A stretch of 48,910 bases of DNA, taken from positions 1 to 48,910 of the IMG/VR virus record IMGVR_UViG_3300023112_000025; one strand, 5' to 3'. This stretch comes from a virus. The notes below the pieces were generated by a model. The model was not told the DNA's origin. It worked only from the letters and a program-made list of their open reading frames with translations, and made no database searches. Position 1 is the first letter of the stretch. Every line of letters begins with the position of its first letter. This document shows, in pieces, positions 3,631 through 47,453 of the stretch. The position numbers and the translations under genes were made by a program.

Positions 3631-4626
3631 TCATTTCTTTGTTATTGGCCCACACTCTGTCATGAGCAAGCCTTCGATTGAAAAGTTAAGTGCGTCTGCT
3701 ACTCCCTGTCCATCGCCATTGCGAGCCTTAAGGCAGTGTAGCGTGCGGTTGTAGGTCGTTGAGTCTGGACCGGCAATAGTCTGCACCATTCCTGTGATAT
3801 CTCCGTGAGCCTCAAGCCAGAGGATCGTATGGCTAAACCGGGAATATGCAGCTGACCCTGCAAGAGCTTCCATGTTTGGCTTTGACGACAATCCGTTCTT
3901 TGGGTGAGTAACCAGTATGATAGAGACTCCGTACTTCGTAGCAATCTCTTCCATATGGTTGATGAAATTAGCTTCTGCTGTCCATCCCTGAGATGCACCG
4001 TTTGGAATCTTTGTTACCGGGTCAATGACAATAACACGTTTGCCTTCTTCGCATCTTTCGATAACCCATTCTACTGTAGTGTCGAGGTTGAATTTCTTTT
4101 TGTTCGGAAGATGGATTGTCTGAGCAAATTCGTCAATGAAGTCCTGATTGTCATTAAGCAAGGTCTTTGTTTCCTCCGGGTTGGCTTCAATCCATTCGAT
4201 CTCTGTAAGCCCGGTTGTCAAAGTCGCCTGTGCCAAAGCTCGCATCATATGATGTTCCATATCGCCTTCAATAGCAAGGATACATGCCGGTACATTGCTG
4301 TCGTGCCAATGGTTTAGCTGTTGCAATAAGAACAAGCTCTTGCATGACCCCGGAGCACCGCAGAACAATGTTACCGTTCCTGGGTACAGTGCCTTGGTGA
4401 TCTTCGTAAGGGCTTTAAACGAGAATGAAATTTCGACGTACTTTCCATCTTTGATCAGATTTACTCGTTTATTAAGAAGCTCGGTTGCTGTTGGAGGTGC
4501 AGTAATCGATTCTTGAACCCCAATTACACATCCCGCTGCATGTCCGGCTAATGATAAATCGGCATTGCAATTTTCGCATATACCTTCTGTATTTTGTAAT
4601 GCGTTTTGATTATTTTCTAATCCCAA
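3631..4626 (-). CDS. DnaB-type replicative helicase / RecA-fold ATPase
   Basis: 331 residues. The N-terminus carries a possible zinc site (CENC at 17-20, Cys33). The RecA-like core shows a P-loop GAPGSCKS (90-97), a Walker B RVIVIDPVTKI, and a sensor-like SIILVTHPKNG; the order fits DnaB/T7 gp4C helicases and related RecA-like phage ATPases. The glycine before the P-loop lysine is cysteine here (codon TGC), which is unusual. The start is TTG at 4624-4626 with GAGG 5-6 bases upstream; no ATG fits. It overlaps the loader gene by 10 bases. Expected to unwind DNA at the fork with the primase. Confidence 0.75.
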   Translation of the reverse strand: MGLENNQNALQNTEGICENCNADLSLAGHAAGCVIGVQESITAPPTATELLNKRVNLIKDGKYVEISFSFKALTKITKALYPGTVTLFCGAPGSCKSLFLLQQLNHWHDSNVPACILAIEGDMEHHMMRALAQATLTTGLTEIEWIEANPEETKTLLNDNQDFIDEFAQTIHLPNKKKFNLDTTVEWVIERCEEGKRVIVIDPVTKIPNGASQGWTAEANFINHMEEIATKYGVSIILVTHPKNGLSSKPNMEALAGSAAYSRFSHTILWLEAHGDITGMVQTIAGPDSTTYNRTLHCLKARNGDGQGVADALNFSIEGLLMTECGPITKK

Positions 4627-19036: not shown

Positions 19037-22000
19037 TTATCGTTTGTATGTTCTGTTTACATCCAATCCAAGGTTTGTCTTCATAATCCCAGTTATCACG
19101 TTCTCTTCTCCGCCAAACAGCTCAAACACATTCTTTGCCTGAATCGGAAGAAGCTGTATCGCCTGCCATGTAGCATATGACGGCAGTTCCGCATGAGACA
19201 AAGGGCCACGCTTACCGCTTTTCCACGTTGCAAGCCCTTCTTGACCGATCTTTGAGAATGTGGTCGGACGCTTATGGTCATACCGAGTGCCGCTTATCAG
19301 GTCAGCAATCGGCTTTGCGACCGTTGAACTCTTATGATATGCCATCCGTACCGGATCAAAAGCAATCTTAGCAGGGTCAAGGAAGTGACCGAGAGTATTC
19401 AGATAGTGGTCTGTTTCCCGATCACCGCCCATTAAGTGTATAAACGGGCTTATATCGGCCTTAAGGATGTTAAATTTCCCACGACCTTTGGCTTTTCTCA
19501 TTCTTTCGGCTATGGAGTCATCATCAATACCGGCCATAAGCAGGTTTATCGCGGTGGTGATAGCAAGACTTCGACCAATGATCCGCAACCAGAACGCCTG
19601 ATAAACCTTCCTTTCAAGATCAGTGCCGGCACGATTTGTACCAACGCCATCGATCTTGCCCGTGGGTTTAAGCCCAGGAACAGCTTTCACAGCAGATATG
19701 ATATTAGAATATGTCCAGTCAGGACCGAGCAATAACAGCCTCATTACGTCCTGAGCACCCTTCGATACCCCCAACCGACCCATATGCATACCACCGAAGT
19801 CAGCATTAGCTAATCCGGCAACAACGCGGTATATCTCTTCTTCCTTGGCCGAATAGAAGTCGTCAAACTCAACATCTCCTTTTTGGCCAAATACTTCCCA
19901 ATTAGCCAGAACATGTTTTGCGATGAATTTCTTGTCTTTAGTTTTCAAATATTCTCTCTCGCTTGCCTTCTTCTCAATAGTAATCTGCACTCGGTTATTT
20001 GTCTGAAGTGCGACAAGCTCATTGAACGCAGTGGCAGTCTTCAGTGAGGATCCAAATATCCCGAATAGCTCACCCTGAAGTCTTGATGTCATTGCTTCGA
20101 ACTTCTTAGCACCCTTACCGACTATCTTGGTAGTCTCACCACGTTTGTGTCCGGCAATGAACTTCTCGATGCGGGTCTTATTCTGCAGGTTTTCTTTGCC
20201 GATATCCTGAACCTGGAACAAGGTCATGCCATAATAGTTCAATGCCATCATCTCAGGCGAGAACTCCATCATCATGTCCATTCCAGCCTGACGCCGGCTA
20301 CCATAGTCAAACCGGCTCTTCATCTTGTTCATGACCCCAACCTGATCCTTATAGTCAGCATTCAGTTCCCCGGCCATGATAGCAGACCAAAGAAGACCAC
20401 GACGATGAAACATTCCGAAATTAATGCGAATCGCTTTCAGTTTAGCGTTAAGGCTCATAAGCCCCATAAGGAATTTGTTATTCCGAAGAGGAGACGTCGC
20501 CGTGATCTTGTTGAAGTAGTCTGCAATCTCGTTGGGAGCATATACGTCACGATACTCACCTTCGATTGTTGAGCCTTGATGTTTCTTTGATATTTCTTTG
20601 GCAGAATCGAAATCCTTTGCCCGGTCAACTATCTTGCCGTCTTTGACGATCTTCAGAGCATAGAGCTTGCTTCCTGCCGGTTTCAATACTGAATACCCAG
20701 ACTGAGGTTTCAGAGTGAAGAACTTATCGAACAGATTAGCATGAATCATCTCCTGATTACTCAATGCTTCGATGGACTGGTTCTGAGCCTCAAGAGCATT
20801 GACAAGAAAGTTGTCGAATTTGAGAACCTTTCCTTCTGCAAGATGCGGAACAAGGTTGTCGTATCTCTTTTCAAGCATCCGGCCTGTAATCTGGCTCATA
20901 AGATGCTCCGGAGTCTCTTCGGTCTGTTTCTGAACGAATACGGCGGCATTATAGAGATATTGCTTCTCACCGGCAAACTTGCTCCGGGAGACGACATCAT
21001 CGTAGAATGCATCCGACATTTTCTTATAGTCGGTCTTCAGCCACGAATTGAGCTTCTGGCCATACTCGCCCTCACTGTTTACGATCTCCGCAACCTTGTC
21101 CATCGATGCGAGGTAGTTATGGTATTGAGCGAGAGCATAATTCTCGTCATTAGTCAGCTTATCCATTGCCGTCAGACGGTCTATGTTCGCTTGTATGGCA
21201 GTTCTCTGTGCTTCGATAGTCTCGGCTGGTTTCTCGGAGTTCATAGCGTCAGCGGCAAACCGCATCGCCCGAGAGTATTCGCCGGCAACACCGCGGGGCT
21301 TAGAATCCTGCTTGCCAGAAAGTACGTTCCGTATGATGTCACGCATCTTGTATTCTGGTTTCATGCCGAATATGTCAAGATAGCTTTTCTCAAGCTTCAT
21401 TGATTCGATCAGAGCCTTGAGCTTACGCATTCCAGAGATACCGAATAATTGGTCGGCAAAGTCAATGTGCGTCAGAGCAGCGGCAACAATCTTCGCTGCT
21501 TCATCCCCTGAGACTGACTTCATTGACATATTCAGGTCGATACGCTTCTGTAATCTGCCTATTGCCTCGTCAACAATTTCCAGATCAGCATCTTGCTCTA
21601 TACCCTTGACGAGCAGGTCTATATCGCCTTCGTCGCCAGCCTTGTCGCCGTATTGGAGTAGGTTTTGCAATTCAAATAGAGCATGTAGCGTCTTCTGCTT
21701 TGCCGCTTTATTGATGCCCGGCCTAGCTGGATCGCCAGTCCCCATTGCTTCTTTCATAAATCTATAATTTGCCATCGTTCTTCTCTTGCCAGAAGAGAGA
21801 ATATCCAGCAGTTTCTTCACTTCAGGAGAAGACACGCCAAGAGTATTCTCGAAAGCAACCGCTTCGGCACCTTCTTTACCATGCGTTCTGCCAAGGAAGT
21901 CGTTAAGTGTATTGTCAAGTAATTCAGCGATAGTCATCTCGGTATACTGTCGCGATGCCGCCGCAGTCTTCATTAATGCGTTCTTGGCGTCAACAGGTGC

Positions 22001-25000
22001 TAGGTTGTTCATAGCCCGAGATACGGTCATTGCTTGGCTTGCTACGCCTTGGTATGCGACCTTGTACCCAATTCTATGCTGTATGTCAGCTTTCGGCAGG
22101 TCAGCAGTCAATAATTCACCAAGGTCTTTGGCAAACTTACGAGTTGCCGCTTGTGCAGTAAGAGAAGTATTAATGATAGTCCGGATATCACTCCGGCTAC
22201 CAACGTCCGTCTGGACGGTTGCATGAGCCTCTGGGTCTATATCTGGAGAACCATGCACCCGAGAACTAACCTCTGTAGCCGCCGCTTCCTCTATCAGCAG
22301 GTCTTCAATGCTTTCAAAGGTAATCTCACCGGGTAACGCTTGGAAAGAGACGAATGATTTGTCGTCAACAAGCCCCATCTCGATAAAGAAGTCACATACC
22401 GCATCGGCCATAATTGTCGAATAATCTGCAAACTGAGCAGATGTACCTTCGACTGGCAGAAACCTCTTAATTCGCTTTGCTCGGTCCTTCTTTGACTCTG
22501 CCTTCTTATTGAGTTCATTGCCGGCGAACGCAAACAGAGAGTGCATTGCCGCTGCCTCTATCTCTTGCATTGCGTTACGGCTGTTCTTCTTGAATAGTCC
22601 ATTCTTGATAGCAGTGTAAACTCGGGTGATGTCGGCATCGATCTGACCACCACGGTTCGCTTCTGCCTGTATTGCCCAGTTAGGGCCAAGCATCTCTGTC
22701 ATCTGGCGTATGATACGTCTATCCTTGCCAGGGTCAAGCATTTCTGACTTCCCGCTTACTGCAAGGTCTTTGTAGTCTATGTCAAGATCAGACGCGTCAA
22801 GGTCAAACTCCATGCTACCAACTCTAAGTATGTCCACATAGCCTTCAGGCCCGATCGTTGAACGATTATCATATCCCAGCCCCATATCTATATAAGCCTG
22901 CTCTGTTAATGGAAGTATGACTCCCTCGTAGACCTGTTGGCTGTATTGTCCTTCAACCCCAAATGCAGTAGGACGGAGATTCTCTTCTGGCGATATACCC
23001 TTCAGGTCTTTAGCTGTTGCCGTACTGACACGCTTGCCAGTAAGCCTGATAGAGTCCGTAGAGCTTGCCATTGAGGTAGCATATGCACGAGAAGCCATGT
23101 CCTCGTCTACCGCAGTCACTACCTCTCTTTGGTCGATACCTCTAGTCGAGGTGGTCTCTTTGCTTTCCAATGACTTGTACTTATGAGCAAGAATCTGCTG
23201 TGGACTCCAATTATGAACTCTGCCCAATGCTTCTGAGATTGATTCAATCGCATTCTCTACTTCTGCTTGTGTCGGATTAGAACCAGACAGAAGGCTTAGT
23301 TCTTCCGAAAGCATGCCGAGGTCATTAAGATTCTGCTTATCACCTCTTTGCTGTGCTATATGCTTTGCTCGCTCTATATCAGAGACAAGCGGACCCATCC
23401 TTGCTAACATTGTTTCTACACTTCTGGTAGGCGTATTCACATCGCCTTGCATGAAAGCATAAGGCTTGCTCATTCCACCAGTAGTCTTACGCTTTGCACT
23501 CTCGATAGCCACTAATGCTTCGACGTTTGCACGTTCAAGTGCTTCAGCGGCCTCTCCGTTGAATTCTTGGTCGGCATCGATCTTTCGCTTAAGTTCGACA
23601 GTAAACTCGCTTGCTTTAGCTTCCTCAAATAATGAGAACTCTTCCGAATCTTCTTTTGGAGCTTTCTTTGTCCTGGCGTATGATTCCTGCATATACGCAT
23701 TGAATTGCTTAACAAAGTCTTCGAAAGGTATCTGGCCAAGTTTGCCATCCCTGTAATACTTCAGGAGTCGCTTGAGTTTTGCTACGCCCGCCTTACGGGT
23801 CTGTCGAGCCTTGACGTTCTTATCGGCCATATACGTCTTCAGTAAGCCGGGCATCAGTTCTGCTGTTTGTTTAAGCTCAGTAAGTGCTTTCTTATGTTCA
23901 TTGACAAACCGTTTCTCTGTTGCAGTTTTAGCAGTGTATACCGATTCATTATTGATCGCACGCTGAAGTCTGCCATCCATGAACTTCTGTAGTTCAGTAC
24001 GTTCAAGGCTGTTAAGGTTGTTGTCTTTTGCGTACCTGTCAACGTATCCGTCCTTACGCTGTTCAAGCTTGTCGTAGTTTGCTTTGAAAGCTAATCTGGC
24101 AGTCTCGGATGCGATGGCTTGTTTCTTGCCGAGTTTTAGTTCAGGTGCTTGCTCGCTCTTCTTCCCGCCGATCTTTGGTCCCGCCTTGCTATCCGTAAAT
24201 CTACTCAATGCCTGAGTTAGATATTTAAATGTCCTTGGAGCCTTCTCTCGTAACTTAGCAAGCCCAGTCCCGATCCCGCCAGACGGAAGGACTATGGGCA
24301 TATTAGACGGAATCTTTTTAAGGGCTGCGTTTATCGCTTGGACATTAGAATCGTACTCGGCATCACTAAAAAATGAACCCTGACTCATTGAAGGTTTCTT
24401 TTTAGTAGGAATGCCGTACGCGTTCGGTTCATCTCGTATAACAGCCTGCCCGCCTTTTCCGCGACCTTGAAGATTATCACCAAACAGGAATGCCGCGTTT
24501 GGCTTAGAGCGAAGCAATTTGGACGTATACTTTTGTTGCGTGACAACACCTCGCCCAGCTGTTATAGAGCCGTAGGGAGCAGGTGGAATTGCTTTCTGTT
24601 GAGAAACAGCAGTCATAGGAACCAACTCTTGGATATCCTGTTCGGTCAAGAACGGTTTTAGATATCGCATATCATTGGAAAGCTCTCTCGCTTCGTGCGA
24701 CTCGATAATACTTGCTGCGATTGCGTAGTTGACATACTTAACCATTCGATCTGTAGCACCAACATCCCAATAGTTATCTTTCTGTCCGAAATCCACATAC
24801 CGGTCTTTCCATCGAGACAGCAAATCTCTAGCCCATCCGCTACGAGGGTTATCGTCACCCTCCATAGCCCACCTTGCGAGAGTGTCACCAATATGCTTTC
24901 TTGCCGCTTCTCTTTGGTGCAGAGTCGTAGATGCTTCATATTCAGCGTTAAGTTTATCGGCAGATTCAAGATAGTCATACCCACGCTCGATGTCATCTTC

Positions 25001-28000
25001 CATTTCTCTTACAAAGTCATATTGTTCTATTTTGGGCATGGGCTGGTTGAGTTCAGTGCCTTTGCCGTTAAAGCCCCATAATTTATCGGAGCGTATTACG
25101 CGATCCTTAGCCGCTTGTTTGTCAGTGGCGGAAAATGATACGAGATCGAATTCCCACCACTTTGCATCCTCTGCGGTGGCAGTTCCTTTTTTTATCCGTC
25201 GATAAGCATCTATGCCTTTTCTCTTAAGCCTTAGATTATGTGTCTCAGTTAAAGCTTTCCATTTTCGAACAGCCTCAGCAAACTGAGAGAATATGCCAAT
25301 GCTGATTCCAGAATCGTATTCTTTTTTGTATTTCTGATGGATAGCTTTCAAACCGCCTGTTGAATATGAGTCCCAATCGTCGATCGAGTCTATTTCGCTC
25401 TCAAAAGAAGGTATCTCTGATTTTGGAACATTCAATGTGTCAACTAAATACGCTACCATATCCTTATACATATTCGATATTTCTTCAAGAGTAATATTCC
25501 TACGCATATGCTCTGGAGATTTGAATGGTAGGTTGTACTTATCTGTAAAGTCTCGTCCGAACGAAGATGGCCTCTCGTATTGCACTCGCTGTACAGAAAA
25601 CTCCCCTGCTGGTATTTTTATTGCATGACTATATGATATTCTACGCTCTCCTGAAAATTCATCTGAGGACGCCTCTTGCCCGTCCAATACTTCTTTTCCT
25701 TCCGAAGCAATTTCCCATCCTTTTTCTGAAAGTTCATAGAAATAGTAATCCGAGCCAGTCCTTTCGCCGTATTCCTGTGCCTGATTTAGATCGTCAGTGA
25801 ATGATATCCCTGTTCCTTTACCGATAAAATTACTTTCGAACATGGTGTCTGTTGCCATCTTCAGAACTAATTCGCCGTTTGCGTTTATTTTTGGAGCAAA
25901 GCTAGAAGCTCGGAATACACTTTTGTCGCCAAATGTAATTGTTGGCATACTCTGATTCAGCTCAGTGCCTTTACTGACAGAGTTAGCCACCCTATTAACA
26001 GCTTTCTTGCCGATACCCATAATACGGCCACCAGCAGACCTTGCTTTAGCCCCCACATCGCCTTCTCTAGCCGCCTGTACGCCAGCCTGAGCAACATCGG
26101 CAGTCTTCCGGCCAATACGTCCAATACGAGGTCCAATGTCCGTAGGAGAAGCCACGCCAAGATGTGACGTCCTTACTTTACTTCCAGTACGAACAGAGGA
26201 TATAACCTGATTCTCATAATGTCGTTTCTTGCTTGCTTCAGAAGCACTCTTGCCGCGAATAGCAACGTCAAGACGGGCATAGATATCGCCGACCCTGCCA
26301 CCCTGTCTAGCTGCTCTTGCTTCGATAGCTTCAGACGGAGCTTCAAGTTTATTGATACGAGCCTGTTTTGCTTGCTGTGTTCTCCACTCAGCTTCTTCGG
26401 GGTACATAGACCCTTCTTCAGAAACATCAAGTGCCACCTTGTCAGCGTCACGCTCTTTCCACGCCTGTATTTCCTCAAGAGAAAGGGTCGCTGCCTTATC
26501 GTAGAAATTAAGCAAAGCACCGCCAACTGCTTCAGGAGAATTCTGTATAATCACATGTGATGATTCATGTGGCATAGTAGAACCTACATAATGGTTTAGA
26601 AGCACAACGTCCTTGCCAAGACCCTTCTTCTCGATCTTCGCCCACAATTCAGGGCTAACCTCGACAGTATCGGCATCGGTGCCAGAGCGATACTTAGACA
26701 TGACTTGCTGCCCGGCTTCGTTGAGTAAGGGTCCATCTGCCTGCATTACAACTATCTTGCCGCCAATCCCGTCACTCATTGTATAGGCCTTACCAGGAAT
26801 CACTTCTTCGATTGACACATTCCTGCTGTTATCTATGAGCCACGCCTGCATAGGGTCTGCTAGCAACGCACTGACCGAATTCGCTACTGCTCTTTCGTAA
26901 GCACTATCAAGGTTTGACTTTCTGGATCTTTTGCTAACATCTATCTCTACGTCCGACTGGCTATGACCGTGGAAGACGTTATGGTCAAGCACGTTGACAT
27001 CGCTTCCCCACCTTTTCTTCAACGCAGCCACCAGTGGGTCAGATGCGTTTGCGAATACATATCTGATCTCTGGGTTAGCTTCAAGCATCTTCTCTATATT
27101 CTCGACTGCTTGACCTCTTTTGCTACCCGGCTTTTTAGCGAGTTGGACGAGCCTGAGCGTGTTCTTTTTCATTCCAGGTTCGGTCTTTTCGGCGTTGCTC
27201 CGTTCGATGACCGCATGTATAGCGAATGTGTCAGTTTCGTACTTGATCTGACCTTCTTCTGTAGCCTTGTATTTCTTGTCGATTTTCTTTTTCGGAGGAT
27301 TCATCATCTCTAAATAAACTCGGCGAGCAATAAAGTCAAGTCCCTCTTCAGTTAGTCCTAAATCTGTTTCAAAATAATCTTCCATCTCTAAATTATCAAT
27401 AATTGATTGCGTCTCAGCCTCAGTTTTCCCATTGAATGGTATAGCCTGACGTGTTTTTAAGTTATTCATCACTTTCTTTGTGGAGTGCCTTACATTATTC
27501 TTAATGGCCTCTATAGTCCTTGCAGTTTTCCATCGCCCTCTAAGGCTGCCACCGGCCCCTAATACCCCAAACGACCCTTCGAGTACTGCACCCGCAATAA
27601 AGGCGTCATTCATTTCCTGTAGAATCTTAGCTACATCGTAAGAACCATCGGCATTGAGAGGAAGAATGCTGTTAAGATCTTCATGCTTGACTGCCAATTC
27701 CATCAGACCCAACTGCATTCCTTGCTGTATCCACTCTTCGACTCCCCCAGTAAGTGTTTCAGCAGTTGTATTTTTTGCAATATTCTTAATCAGTCCAAGT
27801 CGTGACGTATCCATGAATGCTTTAGCCATTGCATCCGACAGTTCTACCTGCGTCATCTTTCCGGCGGCAGTATGGCCTAATGCTTTTTTTATGCCTATTT
27901 TCCTTCCGCTACCTCCGAGATTCCTGAGCCTAGCTCGTCTTCCTCCTGCCTCGAATAGTTTTCCAACCACAGGCGTTTTACTTAATACCTTCCCTGTAGC

Positions 28001-28918
28001 CATCTCGACTGCAGCAACCGACATCCCTATGGCTACCGCTGTTGTTTTAGCTGTTTCCTTGCTTACTCCAGCACGACGCAAATCATAATAGGCCTCTGTC
28101 CCAGTGTACGAGGCGATAAACCCACCACTTAAAATAGGGCCTATTCCGGGAACAATAGCCGATGCAAGGGCAGATCCCATCGGTACGGCATTCTGGGCAG
28201 TAAGGTGTAAATACTTATCCATCGTACCTGTTGGCTCGTGATACGCGGCCTGTCTGGACGCTTCCTGCATAGCCATGCCATACTCTTCGCTTCTGCCTCT
28301 CGCTGCCTCTAGCGGTGCTCTTGCCATCTCAAAGCCTTGGTTGACCGAGTACATCACATCTTCAAAGGTATTGCCGGTGAGTTTGCCCTGCAGGTCATCG
28401 TACTGAGCGTCAAGAAGCTTACCGTATTCAGCTCTTGCATCGGATGCCGTAGCTCGCATCTTCTTCTCGCCTTGCCTGGCTGAGTAAACAGCAAACTCTT
28501 CTTTAGCTGCCAGTGTGTAGTCTTTTGACTCCCACATCCTCTTAAGGTTTTTATCGTAATCTTTGAGGTTGTTTGGCATGTACGACCGTGGAACTTTATT
28601 GATTGTTCCATGCTTTACGTCTTTGTACTGTCCAGCCCATTCTACGTTTTGGTCAACGGCACCTTGGTAAAACTTCCCTTGTTCGTATGGACGTTCATTT
28701 GCCTTTTTCCCCACAGAGATGTTATTTTCGCGTAACCGATTAATATTCAATTGGTGAGATAGTTCAGATTTCTCTTTTGCGGTTAGGCTAAATGTTGTTT
28801 TGGACTCAATAGGCGAACCGTCAGCTCTTGCTTTATTCAATTGAAGCTGAAGAGAAGCATTTCCGCTGGTTTTGATCTGCCGTCTACTTCTTGGTGACGG
28901 TATTGTAACTTGTGCCAT
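19037..28918 (-). CDS. Giant polyvalent virion protein (3293 residues)
   Basis: 3293 residues, the last late gene. Visible parts: basic N-terminus; hydrophobic Gly/Ala segments at about 240-310 (membrane or pore-like); an HExxH zinc-protease motif HESSH (784-788); at about 1000-1060 an ADP-ribosyltransferase-like piece (VFRASSF..., GKGTGISFTDDLNQAQEYG); FGDNLQGRGKGGQA (from 1479) with PSGGIGTGLA (about 1545), a macro-like phage domain; long charged helical stretches (1600-2700); a C-terminal module with NFGMFHRRGLLWSAI, RLLLLGPDWTYSNI and a hydrophobic AITTAINLLMAG (about 3060-3135). The repeated motif KGTELNQ (983, 1286) brackets the ART-like part. By analogy with polyvalent phage proteins it is probably packaged and ejected with the DNA. 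TAATG overlap with the preceding gene. Confidence 0.72.
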   Translation of the reverse strand: MAQVTIPSPRSRRQIKTSGNASLQLQLNKARADGSPIESKTTFSLTAKEKSELSHQLNINRLRENNISVGKKANERPYEQGKFYQGAVDQNVEWAGQYKDVKHGTINKVPRSYMPNNLKDYDKNLKRMWESKDYTLAAKEEFAVYSARQGEKKMRATASDARAEYGKLLDAQYDDLQGKLTGNTFEDVMYSVNQGFEMARAPLEAARGRSEEYGMAMQEASRQAAYHEPTGTMDKYLHLTAQNAVPMGSALASAIVPGIGPILSGGFIASYTGTEAYYDLRRAGVSKETAKTTAVAIGMSVAAVEMATGKVLSKTPVVGKLFEAGGRRARLRNLGGSGRKIGIKKALGHTAAGKMTQVELSDAMAKAFMDTSRLGLIKNIAKNTTAETLTGGVEEWIQQGMQLGLMELAVKHEDLNSILPLNADGSYDVAKILQEMNDAFIAGAVLEGSFGVLGAGGSLRGRWKTARTIEAIKNNVRHSTKKVMNNLKTRQAIPFNGKTEAETQSIIDNLEMEDYFETDLGLTEEGLDFIARRVYLEMMNPPKKKIDKKYKATEEGQIKYETDTFAIHAVIERSNAEKTEPGMKKNTLRLVQLAKKPGSKRGQAVENIEKMLEANPEIRYVFANASDPLVAALKKRWGSDVNVLDHNVFHGHSQSDVEIDVSKRSRKSNLDSAYERAVANSVSALLADPMQAWLIDNSRNVSIEEVIPGKAYTMSDGIGGKIVVMQADGPLLNEAGQQVMSKYRSGTDADTVEVSPELWAKIEKKGLGKDVVLLNHYVGSTMPHESSHVIIQNSPEAVGGALLNFYDKAATLSLEEIQAWKERDADKVALDVSEEGSMYPEEAEWRTQQAKQARINKLEAPSEAIEARAARQGGRVGDIYARLDVAIRGKSASEASKKRHYENQVISSVRTGSKVRTSHLGVASPTDIGPRIGRIGRKTADVAQAGVQAAREGDVGAKARSAGGRIMGIGKKAVNRVANSVSKGTELNQSMPTITFGDKSVFRASSFAPKINANGELVLKMATDTMFESNFIGKGTGISFTDDLNQAQEYGERTGSDYYFYELSEKGWEIASEGKEVLDGQEASSDEFSGERRISYSHAIKIPAGEFSVQRVQYERPSSFGRDFTDKYNLPFKSPEHMRRNITLEEISNMYKDMVAYLVDTLNVPKSEIPSFESEIDSIDDWDSYSTGGLKAIHQKYKKEYDSGISIGIFSQFAEAVRKWKALTETHNLRLKRKGIDAYRRIKKGTATAEDAKWWEFDLVSFSATDKQAAKDRVIRSDKLWGFNGKGTELNQPMPKIEQYDFVREMEDDIERGYDYLESADKLNAEYEASTTLHQREAARKHIGDTLARWAMEGDDNPRSGWARDLLSRWKDRYVDFGQKDNYWDVGATDRMVKYVNYAIAASIIESHEARELSNDMRYLKPFLTEQDIQELVPMTAVSQQKAIPPAPYGSITAGRGVVTQQKYTSKLLRSKPNAAFLFGDNLQGRGKGGQAVIRDEPNAYGIPTKKKPSMSQGSFFSDAEYDSNVQAINAALKKIPSNMPIVLPSGGIGTGLAKLREKAPRTFKYLTQALSRFTDSKAGPKIGGKKSEQAPELKLGKKQAIASETARLAFKANYDKLEQRKDGYVDRYAKDNNLNSLERTELQKFMDGRLQRAINNESVYTAKTATEKRFVNEHKKALTELKQTAELMPGLLKTYMADKNVKARQTRKAGVAKLKRLLKYYRDGKLGQIPFEDFVKQFNAYMQESYARTKKAPKEDSEEFSLFEEAKASEFTVELKRKIDADQEFNGEAAEALERANVEALVAIESAKRKTTGGMSKPYAFMQGDVNTPTRSVETMLARMGPLVSDIERAKHIAQQRGDKQNLNDLGMLSEELSLLSGSNPTQAEVENAIESISEALGRVHNWSPQQILAHKYKSLESKETTSTRGIDQREVVTAVDEDMASRAYATSMASSTDSIRLTGKRVSTATAKDLKGISPEENLRPTAFGVEGQYSQQVYEGVILPLTEQAYIDMGLGYDNRSTIGPEGYVDILRVGSMEFDLDASDLDIDYKDLAVSGKSEMLDPGKDRRIIRQMTEMLGPNWAIQAEANRGGQIDADITRVYTAIKNGLFKKNSRNAMQEIEAAAMHSLFAFAGNELNKKAESKKDRAKRIKRFLPVEGTSAQFADYSTIMADAVCDFFIEMGLVDDKSFVSFQALPGEITFESIEDLLIEEAAATEVSSRVHGSPDIDPEAHATVQTDVGSRSDIRTIINTSLTAQAATRKFAKDLGELLTADLPKADIQHRIGYKVAYQGVASQAMTVSRAMNNLAPVDAKNALMKTAAASRQYTEMTIAELLDNTLNDFLGRTHGKEGAEAVAFENTLGVSSPEVKKLLDILSSGKRRTMANYRFMKEAMGTGDPARPGINKAAKQKTLHALFELQNLLQYGDKAGDEGDIDLLVKGIEQDADLEIVDEAIGRLQKRIDLNMSMKSVSGDEAAKIVAAALTHIDFADQLFGISGMRKLKALIESMKLEKSYLDIFGMKPEYKMRDIIRNVLSGKQDSKPRGVAGEYSRAMRFAADAMNSEKPAETIEAQRTAIQANIDRLTAMDKLTNDENYALAQYHNYLASMDKVAEIVNSEGEYGQKLNSWLKTDYKKMSDAFYDDVVSRSKFAGEKQYLYNAAVFVQKQTEETPEHLMSQITGRMLEKRYDNLVPHLAEGKVLKFDNFLVNALEAQNQSIEALSNQEMIHANLFDKFFTLKPQSGYSVLKPAGSKLYALKIVKDGKIVDRAKDFDSAKEISKKHQGSTIEGEYRDVYAPNEIADYFNKITATSPLRNNKFLMGLMSLNAKLKAIRINFGMFHRRGLLWSAIMAGELNADYKDQVGVMNKMKSRFDYGSRRQAGMDMMMEFSPEMMALNYYGMTLFQVQDIGKENLQNKTRIEKFIAGHKRGETTKIVGKGAKKFEAMTSRLQGELFGIFGSSLKTATAFNELVALQTNNRVQITIEKKASEREYLKTKDKKFIAKHVLANWEVFGQKGDVEFDDFYSAKEEEIYRVVAGLANADFGGMHMGRLGVSKGAQDVMRLLLLGPDWTYSNIISAVKAVPGLKPTGKIDGVGTNRAGTDLERKVYQAFWLRIIGRSLAITTAINLLMAGIDDDSIAERMRKAKGRGKFNILKADISPFIHLMGGDRETDHYLNTLGHFLDPAKIAFDPVRMAYHKSSTVAKPIADLISGTRYDHKRPTTFSKIGQEGLATWKSGKRGPLSHAELPSYATWQAIQLLPIQAKNVFELFGGEENVITGIMKTNLGLDVNRTYKR

Positions 28919-40617: not shown

Positions 40618-42816
40618 CTACTTACCTTTCTTATCTTTATTACTATTCGATTTACCCGACAAGTCCATCTTGCTCAGGGCTATTTGTTCTGGGGTCTTTC
40701 CCTTTATCAACATCTGTGCATTCAGATCTTTCTGGAACGCCATATCTGCACGCTGCTGGATTACCATCTGGTGCTGGCCAATATGCATATTCATACGGTT
40801 AAGCAGTTCAATCATTAAGGCATTGCCAGTACTCTTTGCTTTCCAAAAGTTACTCAACAAGTATTCACTGTGCACCTGAATGTGAACTGAATGATCGTCA
40901 AAGTTATTAACCTGCGGTACAAATAAATATTGCTCAAGTATCTGAGCCGTTTGCTCAGGAGTAGCATTTTCCGGAATGTTAACATCTTTAAGATTCTCTT
41001 CTGCAGCAAGGAATTCTTTTGCCGCAAAATTCTTCTGCTTTGAATGCTTCTGCATAAGAGCAGTAGCGTTACCCATATTCATTTGCTCAAGCGTCCATAT
41101 TCGAAGTTCCGGGTCCTGCGGATCACCGAGAACACCAGACCCCCATGCTTGAAACGCCTGTATCTTTTCAGCTTCTTTGTCAAGCGGCATAGAAGAATGA
41201 CGCCTGACTATTACATTTACTTTACCTTGCAATTGCTGACGATCGATCTTGTAGACTGTCCAGTCGTAATCGGTTCCGACGACATTTACAAGTCTATCGC
41301 TTTCATAGTTTTTAAGTGCCAACGTCAATGCCTGATACGCTACTCTCTGGTCTGCTTCTTCGAACCCTTCGACTATCGGCCCAAGTTGCCTTGTGTCTGC
41401 ATTGGCAAGCCTTTCAAGCCCTTTACCGCTTTCGATGTTCCGTGGTGCTATTCCCTGTGATGCATGATGGAATGCAAACAAAGAATCGATCGCAAGTTTC
41501 TTGTCATTTAAATAAGAAAAGACCTGGCTATTCATAGGAACGCCCGCTTCTCGCGTTGGCTTTCCAACTGGGCCGTCATATTCGATTATATTACCAGCAC
41601 CGTTAGATAACGTTCTATGCCTAAGCTTAGCCGACTTCGGTGCCATAATAATGGCATTACCCATAATGTCGATGTTCTCGTCAATCTGACTTGCCAGCTC
41701 GTTCAGCTTTCTCTGTAACGGTCTTGCTTGGCTTATCCGGCTGATGGAACCGTTAGATACACCGACAACGTTCATCGGTGCTGCAGGGATAAACGGAAGT
41801 TCTCCGTGAGGATACATTTCTGTTGGATATGGGGCATGCATAACAACCTGCGTCCCAAGCATAACAGCATAGATTCCGGTCGGCATTGACTTTGAAGGCT
41901 TTTCCCAGTATTCGTAATAATCAATGAACTCGTCAGATTCAAGTTGCATATGAGATGAAGCATCCATCTTTGGCGTAAATGTTGTTTTGTTTCCGGCAAA
42001 CCCACTGACCAGACTATTGAACCGTCGCGTCAATCCAACTTCAAACTCAGATTCCCCTGCCTCCCTTGCAGATGTAAACTGAGATTTTAGCTTACTGTGT
42101 ACTTCTGTGCCAAATCTGTCAACTACCCAGTTGCCGGTAACACGCTTTGAATGGATAATCCATTTCAACTTATTAAGATTCGTTTCCCTGAAATCATAGA
42201 TAAGTTGATTTGTTGGGATGCATTCAATTTGAACATCTCCCTGCATGATTGCTTCGCCAACCTCAAGGTTTGGGTTATGTGCAAGATTTTCTGAGCCATC
42301 TTCATTGAATGGATCCGGATTGATACCGACAACCGTTTCATTTGCGTCCCAGTAAACCTTACGCCATCCGATAGTGGAAATATCCCACCACAGAACAGCC
42401 TCACCGCGTTTAAAGTCTCTTCCGAGCTTACGCTGAAGAACCTTGAGTATCTTATCGCCGGCAATAGCGGTCGCACGATCATCATCGTCAGTACCAGCCG
42501 GTACAACGTCAAAGAGTGCCGGACTCGCCGTAGCAGTAGCGACATCATTCTGTACCGCAGGCAGGATGACATTAACAACTTCATCGGTTGTACGCCTCTT
42601 GGCTGCAGGCCGAATAACGTCACCAAGAATCTCGATGTTTTGATACCCAACAAGATAACATACATTGGCAGTAATCTCGTTGACAATCAATCTTCTATGT
42701 ATATTGAAACTGTATTTCCGCGTACTCATCATCTTCCCGATATGAAGAGCCTGCGGATCGTCAGTCATTATGAACTGAGTCTGCATTTTTATTTTGTCAG
42801 TCTTACGTTCTTCCAA
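40618..42816 (-). CDS. Portal protein, P22 type
   Basis: 732 residues, the size of P22-like portals. Contains a beta/alpha wing (WWDISTIGWRKVYWDANET, then IECIPTNQLIYDFR), a helical stem-to-crown segment (ARPLQRKLNELASQIDENID), PRNIESGKGLERLANADTRQ, and a C-terminal helical barrel (AQMLIKGKTPEQIALSKMDL). The start is TTG at 42814-42816 with AAGGAAG 7 bases upstream; the first ATG (residue 11) has no ribosome site. It forms the DNA channel at one capsid vertex. It overlaps the zinc-ribbon gene by 14 bases. Confidence 0.8.
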   Translation of the reverse strand: MEERKTDKIKMQTQFIMTDDPQALHIGKMMSTRKYSFNIHRRLIVNEITANVCYLVGYQNIEILGDVIRPAAKRRTTDEVVNVILPAVQNDVATATASPALFDVVPAGTDDDDRATAIAGDKILKVLQRKLGRDFKRGEAVLWWDISTIGWRKVYWDANETVVGINPDPFNEDGSENLAHNPNLEVGEAIMQGDVQIECIPTNQLIYDFRETNLNKLKWIIHSKRVTGNWVVDRFGTEVHSKLKSQFTSAREAGESEFEVGLTRRFNSLVSGFAGNKTTFTPKMDASSHMQLESDEFIDYYEYWEKPSKSMPTGIYAVMLGTQVVMHAPYPTEMYPHGELPFIPAAPMNVVGVSNGSISRISQARPLQRKLNELASQIDENIDIMGNAIIMAPKSAKLRHRTLSNGAGNIIEYDGPVGKPTREAGVPMNSQVFSYLNDKKLAIDSLFAFHHASQGIAPRNIESGKGLERLANADTRQLGPIVEGFEEADQRVAYQALTLALKNYESDRLVNVVGTDYDWTVYKIDRQQLQGKVNVIVRRHSSMPLDKEAEKIQAFQAWGSGVLGDPQDPELRIWTLEQMNMGNATALMQKHSKQKNFAAKEFLAAEENLKDVNIPENATPEQTAQILEQYLFVPQVNNFDDHSVHIQVHSEYLLSNFWKAKSTGNALMIELLNRMNMHIGQHQMVIQQRADMAFQKDLNAQMLIKGKTPEQIALSKMDLSGKSNSNKDKKGK

Positions 42817-43021
42817 GATTCACTTCCTTTTCAATACCGTTATCGGTAGTTACAAGAAACGATGTATCACAACCAATGCATTTTATTACCGCGTCCCTGG
42901 CAAGGACTTCCATGCCTTTGTGTTTCACATGAACAAACGTGCCGTCGTCTTCGAAGTCGCTAATCTTAGCAACCTTACGGTAGCATTTTGGACAGTTCAA
43001 ATTTTTAGATGACTTGGCCAT
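42803..43021 (-). CDS. Small zinc-ribbon protein
   Basis: 72 residues from ATG 43021 (GGAAGAAG upstream). CPKC (10-13) and CIGC (48-51) make a zinc ribbon around a beta hairpin (GTFVHVKHKGMEVLARDAVI). It lies between terminase and portal genes and overlaps both neighbours. Possibly binds terminase or DNA; unrecognised. Confidence 0.6.
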   Translation of the reverse strand: MAKSSKNLNCPKCYRKVAKISDFEDDGTFVHVKHKGMEVLARDAVIKCIGCDTSFLVTTDNGIEKEVNLGRT

Positions 43022-43283
43022 GTTCTTCTTCCGCATCTTCTGTTTCTGTTTCGTCTTTAGAGGTATCATATCCAGCAATAAACAATTCGATATCGCCCAT
43101 CTCCTTGATAAGCTCAGGTTTCAGCAATTTCATCCGCAACCAACATGAATGGAAATAACTATCTCTTGTGCACAGTACGTCACTGATCTGGTCTGGAACT
43201 TTTGCTGGCTCTGGCATATCCAGTGCTTTCATGACTTCATCTACCGTTGACCCGAATAGTCTTTCCCTAATCTTTTCAATCAT
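43005..43283 (-). CDS. Hypothetical acidic protein
   Basis: 92 residues; helical start (MIEKIRERLFGSTVDEVMKA) and very acidic end (SKDETETEDAEEEHG). It overlaps the terminase nuclease gene by 4 bases (ATGA). Ribosome site AAAGGG. Unrecognised. Confidence 0.55.
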   Translation of the reverse strand: MIEKIRERLFGSTVDEVMKALDMPEPAKVPDQISDVLCTRDSYFHSCWLRMKLLKPELIKEMGDIELFIAGYDTSKDETETEDAEEEHGQVI

Positions 43284-43990
43284 AATACAATCCCTTTCTG
43301 TGTTCTGCCTGACGACAATTGCTTCCTAAACTGTTTCCATGCTTTCTGTACGTCAACGTCCTGCGTCTGATGCGTTATTACCTGTTTTTTCCGAGGCTTT
43401 GCAAACGGATAAAGCTTTGCTCCATGATAGGCCATCATCAAGGCCATTACCGTATCGTCATTGAATCCGTCTGCCGCACCTGCTTTTCCCTTTGACTGCA
43501 TATAGACAAAGTTCATCATCTCCGAGATCGTTACCGGGTCATGCAGGACGATACCGCCTTCTGACAATGCCAGTTGCATTTCATTTATCAATAACCACTT
43601 TGACGATTCTGTGGTTCTGAATCCATACTTGTCCGAGATATCCATATCCTGATCGAGTCTGGTTTCAGCTTGATAGTTTCTTGGGTACTTATAATAATCT
43701 AAAAGAGCATCCTGTACTGAGTTACCCGGGTAGTTGATTTCCATTACTATCAGGGCTTCGTTATAAAACCGTCCGAGTTGGTTGGCGAATTCGCTTACTT
43801 TATTTACAGGCCATTTCGCTCGGAATACGGCGACCTGCTCGAACGGTATTGTGTTACTTAGTATTTGGAAGCATGTGTAGTCGTCTGCAAGTCCAGTACT
43901 TGCGTCACCGCCAAGCGTGTATACCATTCCTGGCTCTGGAAGCCTCATAATTCGCAATGGACCCATTTCTTGTTCGACAAATTGGTGCAT
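43280..43990 (-). CDS. Large terminase, C-terminal nuclease half (split gene)
   Basis: 236 residues. The RNase H-fold nuclease motifs of large terminases: LGGDASTGLADDY (Asp29), ALIVMEINYPG (Glu84), and DGFNDDTVMALMMA (Asp178/179). It starts MHQFVEQEMGPLRIMRLPEP, the linker normally found between ATPase and nuclease domains, so the break is at the domain boundary. It cuts the DNA concatemer in packaging. The ATG overlaps the stop of the DUF2829 gene (TAATG), which suggests translational coupling; no strong ribosome site of its own. Confidence 0.82.
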   Translation of the reverse strand: MHQFVEQEMGPLRIMRLPEPGMVYTLGGDASTGLADDYTCFQILSNTIPFEQVAVFRAKWPVNKVSEFANQLGRFYNEALIVMEINYPGNSVQDALLDYYKYPRNYQAETRLDQDMDISDKYGFRTTESSKWLLINEMQLALSEGGIVLHDPVTISEMMNFVYMQSKGKAGAADGFNDDTVMALMMAYHGAKLYPFAKPRKKQVITHQTQDVDVQKAWKQFRKQLSSGRTQKGIVL

Positions 43991-44259
43991 TATTCTACTT
44001 CTACCCAGTCGTCAGCTAAAATGTCACTCTGTGATGCTAGCCAAGGAACCACATTGCCTTGATCTGTCTTCATTGCGATATAAGCACCGTATTCTACTGT
44101 GTCTCCGAATTCTGCTTTTGCGACATCTGTGACAGTTTTGTAGGAGTTGGCTGGAACATGATATAGAAACATCCCTTTGCCGTTCCATCCTGCCCTTGCG
44201 ACTTTTCTGCCATCCATTAAGATCCCGAGTGCATCGCTGAAAAATAAACTTTCTTCCAT
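43990..44259 (-). CDS. DUF2829 / Tad2-type Thoeris anti-defence protein
   Basis: 89 residues that match the whole DUF2829 pattern: FSDALGILMDGRKVARAGWN (helix plus RxGWNGKGMF, 22-31), a mid beta hairpin (EYGAYIAMKTDQGN), and the C-terminal WLASQSDILADDW (73-85). Tad2 proteins of this family bind and hold the cyclic nucleotide signal made by Thoeris TIR proteins, so they block that defence. The gene sits exactly between the two halves of the large terminase: 23 bases after the ATPase half and overlapping the nuclease half by one base. AAAGG ribosome site. Some DUF2829 members may have other ligands. Confidence 0.8.
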   Translation of the reverse strand: MEESLFFSDALGILMDGRKVARAGWNGKGMFLYHVPANSYKTVTDVAKAEFGDTVEYGAYIAMKTDQGNVVPWLASQSDILADDWVEVE

Positions 44260-44282
44260 AATCCTATGCCTTTCTTAATATA

Positions 44283-45254
44283 CTATCCTGCTAACGCCAA
44301 TGTCCCATCGACATGTGGCATTGCTGAATTTTCAAGTGCTACTAATAGTTTCCTGTCGAATACCGGACGGCCACCAAAGATGATATATTTGCCTTCAATA
44401 CGAACCTGTCTTTCATCTTCCGGCATTGACTTACAAAGCTTGTCAATCTCGCTGATCGGAATGTACGGATTCTCACGCATTCCAGCCATCGTGTAATAAA
44501 CATCTTCTCGGTCAAGCGTGTCCTTCAGCCACTTGGTTCCTTCGACTGGTGTTGCTGTCATTAGCCAAGGTGCTGCCTTGTCAAGCGTCCTGATCTCAAG
44601 CTCACCAAACACACCCTCTTTCAAAGGTTCTTCGTCTACCCAGGCAAAGTCGATCTTAGCACTTTGAAACTTTTGCTTTCCGGAGTCTACTGACTTAAAC
44701 CAGACTTCCCATTCTCTGCCGTCAGACTTCAATGACCAGTACCCAAGCTTACCGTGCCATTTCCCTTTTTCTTTGTACCGCTTTGGGATAAGCGATTCGA
44801 AATAAGGTTGCAATACAGATCCTATACACTTGCTGTCAAGCCCGACAATCCATGCTATGCCCTCTTTAGGGCTTTCATAGGTAGGATGCTCGCCTGTGAC
44901 CATCATCGCTGTCACAAAGGCACCCATTTGACTTTTGCCGATACGGTTCGCTCCACAAGCGACACAGCCTTTGTATTTTGGCATATTCCAGATAATGTCA
45001 TACTGCCAACTCGGTCCACCGCTACGGTTCCGGTACGGCATCATCTTGTAGTAGAGTTCTTCGCCTCTTGCCAAAACTTCCGTCACTAGCTGTCGATTCG
45101 TTTTTAGCCAGTTCAAAGCCTCTTTCCCCTTCGACGTATGACTCGACATAGCGGCGAGATTCCTGAGCCTCGTCAATTTGTCTAAATAGTTCTTCATCTG
45201 ATGATAAGGAAACCTCAACTGTAATGTCTTTTTTTGCTGGAGCTTTGAGTCCAT
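44283..45254 (-). CDS. Large terminase, N-terminal ATPase half (split gene)
   Basis: 323 residues in the longest frame. P-loop GANRIGKS (101-108), Walker B IDFAWVDEEP (201-210, Asp208/Glu209), and a motif III-like LMTATPVEG. It ends after GGRPVFDRKLLVALEN and a short tail, where intact terminases go on into the nuclease domain. It drives DNA into the procapsid. The start is uncertain: ATG at 45254 would overlap the small terminase gene by 233 bases; other choices are ATG 45149, GTG 45086, TTG 45074 or ATG 45044, and the first residues before the P-loop do not decide. Confidence 0.8.
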   Translation of the reverse strand: MDSKLQQKKTLQLRFPYHQMKNYLDKLTRLRNLAAMSSHTSKGKEALNWLKTNRQLVTEVLARGEELYYKMMPYRNRSGGPSWQYDIIWNMPKYKGCVACGANRIGKSQMGAFVTAMMVTGEHPTYESPKEGIAWIVGLDSKCIGSVLQPYFESLIPKRYKEKGKWHGKLGYWSLKSDGREWEVWFKSVDSGKQKFQSAKIDFAWVDEEPLKEGVFGELEIRTLDKAAPWLMTATPVEGTKWLKDTLDREDVYYTMAGMRENPYIPISEIDKLCKSMPEDERQVRIEGKYIIFGGRPVFDRKLLVALENSAMPHVDGTLALAG

Positions 45255-46820: not shown

Positions 46821-47453
46821 TTATAAATTTGCTTCATCTAATCTTTTTTTCAGAGCTAATAATTCTGACCGGATAAATCCGACCTCTGTTGCATCAATGC
46901 CCGCAACCCCCGGCCTTCCTGTTGGACCTGGTATACCGCGTCTTCCCGGAGGCCCTTGCTGTCCATCCTTGCCGTCGACTCCATTCGTTCCATTTATTCC
47001 ATCGCTTCCACGCTCTCCACGTTCGCCGTCAATGCCATTCGTGCCATTAGTGCCATCAATGCCGTCTCTGCCAACAAAACCGTCTAAGCCGTTCTTGCCG
47101 GGATTCCCATCGACACCATGAAGACCATCTGTGCCGGGTTCACCTTTAGGACCGCGAGGGCCAAGTTTTCCGTCCTTGCCGTCTTTTCCGTCCTTGCCGT
47201 TAATGCCGTCCTTATAATCAACTCCCTTTATCGGAGTAAGTCCATTAGCCCCATCAGCTCCGTTAACTCCATTGGTCCCGGCAATACCAGTCGCACCCGT
47301 ATCGCCCTTATCTCCTTTGGCGAATATCTTGATCGGCTTCTTTGGGTCACCTTTAAAGAAAAGCTTGCCGCCCTTCACCATAAGCGAATCCATTAAAGTC
47401 TGAGCAAGTGCAGTCAGTTTTTGTTTTCCGCTATACTTTGTTCGATCAGTCAT
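46821..47453 (-). CDS. Collagen-like fibre protein
   Basis: 210 residues. A short N-terminal domain (residues 1-45), then about 45 Gly-X-Y triplets (47-185: GDKGDTGATGIAGTNG..., with GKDGKDGKDGK and GPPGRRGIPGPTGRPG), broken twice by short non-triplet bits (PIKGVDYKD), and a C-terminal coiled-coil-like tail (VGFIRSELLALKKRLDEANL) that may trimerise it. Phage collagen-like proteins form thin tail or head fibres. Translationally coupled to the gene before it (ATGA). Confidence 0.85.
   Translation of the reverse strand: MTDRTKYSGKQKLTALAQTLMDSLMVKGGKLFFKGDPKKPIKIFAKGDKGDTGATGIAGTNGVNGADGANGLTPIKGVDYKDGINGKDGKDGKDGKLGPRGPKGEPGTDGLHGVDGNPGKNGLDGFVGRDGIDGTNGTNGIDGERGERGSDGINGTNGVDGKDGQQGPPGRRGIPGPTGRPGVAGIDATEVGFIRSELLALKKRLDEANL

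Follow-up and report, generated by a model that had tools for sequence, protein, structure and literature searches.

The large terminase (TerL) of the virus studied here is encoded by two genes, one for the ATPase half and one for the nuclease half, and a small Tad2-like gene (PF11195/DUF2829) lies between them. The DNA analysed, which we call the window, is 48,910 nucleotides long and is IMG/VR record IMGVR_UViG_3300023112_000025 from its first to its last position. Comparison with related contigs shows that the two-gene TerL is conserved, that the slot between the halves is empty in some lineages and has changed its cargo in others, and that the halves differ in their affinities to known TerLs. 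The explanation that we consider probable is that this is a two-gene hybrid large terminase and that its junction serves, inside the packaging operon, as a cargo slot for relatives of proteins that sponge up Thoeris signals.

The genes of this region (Table 1) follow one another on the minus strand in the order TerS candidate, ATPase half, Tad2-like gene, nuclease half, 92-aa ORF, zinc-ribbon-like ORF and portal. The ATPase stop and the Tad2-like start are separated by 23 bp, and the last base of the Tad2-like stop codon TAA is also the first of the nuclease ATG (TAATG). No other TerL is present in the window, and the 92-aa ORF had no match in family searches. The reading frame of the TerS candidate differs from that of TerL-ATPase, and the two ORFs share 233 bp (45022-45254); overlapping TerS/ATPase ORFs with similar proteins in both frames also occur in the related contigs L002, L006, L022 and L026. 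Upstream of the packaging genes there is a collagen-like protein of 210 aa with Gly-X-Y repeats (46821-47453). Elsewhere in the window are a single ORF of 3293 aa almost without family matches (19037-28918; phrog_2072 over about 100 residues) and two ORFs, primase-like (1881-2711) and helicase-like (3631-4626), that correspond to different parts of one primase/helicase family and have a RuvC-like resolvase ORF between them.

Table 1. Genes and other features around the divided terminase of the window
Feature	Position	Strand	Details
Candidate TerS	45612-45022	minus	196 aa; phrog_7344 TerS 2.9e-4 and HTH
TerL ATPase half	45254-44283	minus	323 aa; Walker A GANRIGKS, Walker B IDFAWVDEE, motif III TATP; phrog_2 TerL
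23-bp leader	44260..44282	minus	Shine-Dalgarno-like AGGA; TTAAGAAAGGCATAGGATTATGGAAGAA common to L002 despite a different coding part
Tad2-like (PF11195/DUF2829), predicted Thoeris-signal sponge	44259-43990	minus	89 aa; nearest is ModTad2
TerL nuclease half, RNase H fold	43990-43280	minus	236 aa; T4/Vibrio 1.205.O type
Conserved ORF	43005..43283	minus	92 aa; downstream of nuclease with ATGA overlap; in relatives having the region
Zinc-ribbon-like ORF	42803..43078	minus	91 aa; CxxC pairs; conserved in the clade
Portal protein, P22-like	40618..42816	minus	PF16510 4e-8, phrog_156 3e-26

TerL is usually described as one chain in which a flexible linker coordinates the ATPase and the nuclease. The two domains are not in one chain here, and the point at which they are split falls in the linker of fused TerLs. 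The ATPase half contains all three motifs of a large-terminase ATPase (Walker A, Walker B and motif III) and matched the phrog_2 TerL family with E=5e-13; its match to Pfam Terminase_6N (E=0.0025) is below the curated cut-off of that family. An AlphaFold model of this half had a pLDDT of 40 and was too poor to be used as a structural basis. The nuclease half has the acidic residues of an RNase H-like nuclease and matched phrog_24361 terminase (6e-20). Its profile matched the nuclease domain of RB49 and T4 gp17 (5e-12 and 1e-7, respectively), with a start near T4 residue 384, and a modest structural model of it gave a Foldseek match to the gp17 nuclease domain. These results agree with much of the first-pass annotation of this DNA. 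The ORF coordinates and the TAATG bear out its description of an ATPase half, 23 bases, a whole DUF2829 ORF and a nuclease ATG overlapping the DUF2829 stop, and its statement that no ATPase or nuclease motif is missing was confirmed by finding Walker A and B, motif III and the acidic motifs. It was also correct that TerL is encoded as two separate chains, given the two ORFs, the lack of another TerL in the window and the recurrence of the split in relatives, and that a Tad2-family gene is exactly at the TerL domain boundary, where the PF11195 ORF occupies the position of the linker of fused TerLs.

Relatives were sought in IMG/VR with ATPase, nuclease and portal queries, all of which converged on one small clade. 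Both halves are present in eight lineages (window/L001, L002/L003, L004, L006, L013/L015, L014, L023 and L026), and all conclusions about the clade are based on these. Every one of the eight encodes TerL as two ORFs. The junction is empty in five (L004, L006, L013, L014 and L026), where the halves are separated by gaps of 2 and 9 bp or overlap by 4, 11 or 26 bp. Five of the eight thus have abutting halves with no intervening gene, and the reading that fits best is that the split predates the Tad2-like gene. The deepest branches of a concatenated tree, midpoint-rooted for drawing only, all have an empty slot (L014, L013 and L006). In seven of the lineages the nuclease ATG is no more than 11 nt from the preceding stop, whichever gene precedes it, making it plausible that translation of the nuclease is coupled to that of the upstream gene; the exception, L014, has the 26-nt overlap. 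The split was found again in independent contigs of 50-92% identity, and an assembly error was judged an unlikely source of it for this reason. IMG/VR contig 3300023276_000579 does not count as an independent replicate, since it shows 100% identity over 15.4 kb. A frameshift or readthrough joining the halves was also judged unlikely because the junction offset varies among relatives and a whole ORF intervenes in the window. In three of the relatives, the Walker A of the ATPase half (GANRIGK / S) is the exact site of intein-like insertions that carry homing-endonuclease-like domains (L004:3923-5968, L013:2915-4999 and L023:3630-5648). A DNA-level blastn search of the window against phages gave no match, and a scan of genome contigs with the nuclease alignment brought up no relatives and hence neither a provirus nor a link to a host. 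In the open-access literature we found no published description of a split TerL or of Tad2 inside a terminase.

Three phage types have an occupied slot, and what we say of slot occupancy is based on these. The window protein matched PF11195 (Tad2-like) with E=1.4e-23 (83.6 bits against a curated cut-off of 25) and solved Tad2 proteins in the PDB (9eib, ModTad2, 8e-26; 8v3e, 9e-26); it is 53% identical to ModTad2 over 83 aa in a gapless alignment. The slot of L002/L003 contains a short-form Tad2-like protein of 74 aa (PF11195 2e-10, 41.4 bits against the cut-off of 25). This protein has no WNGKGM stretch and may not be a binder of ADPR signals. The slot of L023 contains Tad1, with near-full-length homology to PDB 8kbb (E=1.3e-26, residues 6-118 of 120). 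The Tad2-like proteins of the window and L002 are 28% identical, whereas the flanking ATPase and nuclease are 92% and 86% identical. They belong to different subfamilies in a tree (100/99 support), and both have nearer relatives among the proteins of unrelated phages than in each other. The low identity between well-conserved flanks and the separate subfamilies point to replacement rather than plain divergence. A stretch of 28 bp around the Tad2-like start codon is common to the window and L002. Among 50,697 phage records searched by tblastn, 372 have relatives of the window Tad2 and 117 have relatives of the L023 Tad1, which makes it unlikely that all three kinds of occupied slot came to hold sponge relatives by chance. 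No repeats hinting at an insertion mechanism were found around the slot in the window or L002, the GC composition of the slot does not differ from that of neighboring genes, and promoter and terminator scans gave nothing above shuffled sequences.

To place the two halves among known terminases, profiles of each were compared with a panel of fused TerLs. The ATPase-half profile matched MW202795, LUZ24, LAh_9, TacPo2, RHEph18, Phriendly, L024 and P22 (22-90 bits) and no T4-type TerL in the panel. The nuclease-half profile matched Marzo, L031, Brevibacillus, Vibrio 1.205.O, Campylobacter F374, L016, L017 and T4 (35-95 bits) and no P22-type TerL in the panel. Likewise, each fused TerL query that matched the window matched one half only. 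Neither type accounts for both halves: the ATPase alone belongs with the P22/LUZ24 type and the nuclease alone with the T4 type. The panel was built from matches to one half or the other and is biased in this respect; a control matrix, in which the halves of ordinary fused TerLs mostly scored within their own type, softens this bias and does not remove it. The exceptions in the control were MW202795, whose nuclease part matched nothing in the panel, and L024, which was matched only in its ATPase part. Because its halves match different TerL lineages while fused TerLs are mostly of one type, this terminase appears to be a hybrid motor built of two polypeptides from two TerL lineages, and we infer that recombination made it.

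An ordinary vertical fission of one TerL, followed by unequal divergence of its parts, would explain the affinities differently and would still leave the slot as a cargo site. TerL domains can diverge at differing rates, and, since nothing in the panel is matched by the nuclease part of MW202795 or L024, fused relatives of the ATPase half, the true fused ancestor could be unsampled. However, the TerLs of Vibrio 1.205.O (V1205O), L031 and Brevibacillus match one another in both halves (53-141 and 79-89 bits), and their nuclease matches the split nuclease (65-71 bits), but the split ATPase has no match to theirs and is matched by the ATPase of MW202795 (70-78 bits). We regard fission as unlikely. 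Far less probable is the account favored by the first-pass annotation, in which a Tad2 gene entered and split an intact TerL or was selected together with the split there. The exact position of the gene at the domain boundary and the overlap of its stop with the nuclease ATG speak for this account, but five lineages, among them those that branch deepest in the midpoint-rooted tree, have the split without any intervening gene, and each half matches a different TerL lineage. That annotation had proposed a search for homologs with an intact TerL and no DUF2829 gene: relatives without the gene in the gap do exist (the same five lineages), but among the fused TerLs tested no homolog of both halves turned up. 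It had also named a gap gene other than DUF2829 as evidence against its reading, and L023 carries one, Tad1, at the same position.

The slot protein might instead be a packaging accessory or regulator that links the ATPase and nuclease chains and is no immune sponge here. The slot gene is always inside the terminase operon in this clade, and Tad2-like genes adjoin terminase genes in some other phages. In a convenience sample of 15 DUF2829 genes, six adjoin packaging or head genes (L047, L051, L054, L056, L058 and L059) and nine lie elsewhere (L045, L046, L048, L049, L050, L052, L053, L055 and L057). The sites in the first six are the TerS-TerL gap, just upstream of TerS-TerL, two genes past TerL, or the interval between capsid and tail genes; in Vibrio 1.205.O the DUF2829 gene is two genes downstream of TerL. 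The annotated gene between TerS and TerL of LUZ24 encodes a lysozyme (L062:1536-1934). Against an accessory role, five lineages lack the slot gene, others have a member of a different subfamily or Tad1, a sponge of another build, in its place, and those of its homologs whose structures are solved carry an anti-Thoeris annotation. We consider this role very improbable and prefer the slot as a site for sponge relatives.

Tad1 and Tad2 sequester some cyclic dinucleotides as well as the ADPR signals made by TIR proteins (PMC12043709). For ModTad2 the reported ligand is His-ADPR, the signal of type II Thoeris, and for SPO1 Tad2 it is gcADPR, that of type I (PMC13299392). From its homology to Tad2, the window protein is predicted to sequester His-ADPR or gcADPR. 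It would bind an ADPR-type signal from host TIR (ThsB) proteins and keep the effector off; for a ModTad2-like member, His-ADPR would be the likelier ligand and gcADPR the alternative. The gene would be co-expressed with the TerL, portal and capsid genes, late expression being assumed from gene content, and its product would build up as capsid protein appears. In staphylococcal and streptococcal Thoeris, the trigger is the phage major head protein (PMC12578639). The first-pass annotation had seen an odd timing in an anti-defence gene placed with a late TerL. The late position stands as an assumption, but capsid-triggered Thoeris offers a plausible answer: with its gene in the packaging operon, a sponge would be produced at the time the Thoeris trigger arises; the late position is then no anomaly, and the sponge need not be mistimed.

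For the terminase, the P22/LUZ24-type ATPase and the T4-type RNase H nuclease, made from closely packed ORFs, would assemble as one motor on the portal and package DNA jointly. One small ORF can fit after the ATPase stop and before the nuclease ATG with both chains unbroken. The P22 nuclease domain, when isolated from its ATPase domain, is reported to be less active or inactive (PMC7617512), which makes it less certain that separate chains would function. It is quite possible, and we propose it more tentatively than the slot itself, that the motor is modular with exchangeable ATPase and nuclease genes and that its junction is a site of sponge exchange, the sponge dose being coupled to the triggering capsid/packaging operon. 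If true, a natural two-chain hybrid TerL provides a direct test of the need for covalent coupling of ATPase and nuclease. A fixed slot in which Tad1 and two kinds of Tad2 are swapped provides a place-based way to find new anti-defence genes, and it fits the idea that a capsid-triggered defence is met by sponges expressed with capsid genes.

The window ATPase half is nearest to the P22/LUZ24/MW202795-type TerLs and has an ANRxGKS-like Walker A, as in TacPo2, LAh_9 and MW202795, but these TerLs are single chains with another nuclease type. The nuclease half is nearest to T4/RB49 gp17 and the Vibrio phage 1.205.O-type TerLs, which are also single chains; the Vibrio 1.205.O-like TerLs have an RQxGxST-type Walker A, unlike the window. 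The slot protein shares the PF11195 family with known Tad2 proteins (ModTad2, 9eib; SPO1 Tad2 Gp34.65, 8sme; HgmTad2/AcrIIA7-type, 8kbi). It differs from them in lying between terminase halves, a placement that we found for no reported Tad2, and from the 104-aa 8kbi protein in having no long insertion. Tad1 (8kbb, 7uav; SBSphiJ7) fills this slot in L023, a related phage, but its structure is unlike that of Tad2 (PMC12043709) and it is absent from the window itself. The DNA polymerase of phages MEP401/402 offers a parallel, another core phage enzyme whose coding sequence is divided into two ORFs with a small ORF between them (PMC10580990). It differs in being a polymerase and in that the inserted ORF is of unknown kind, and the authors of that work suggest an intron/homing origin for the split (PMC10580990).
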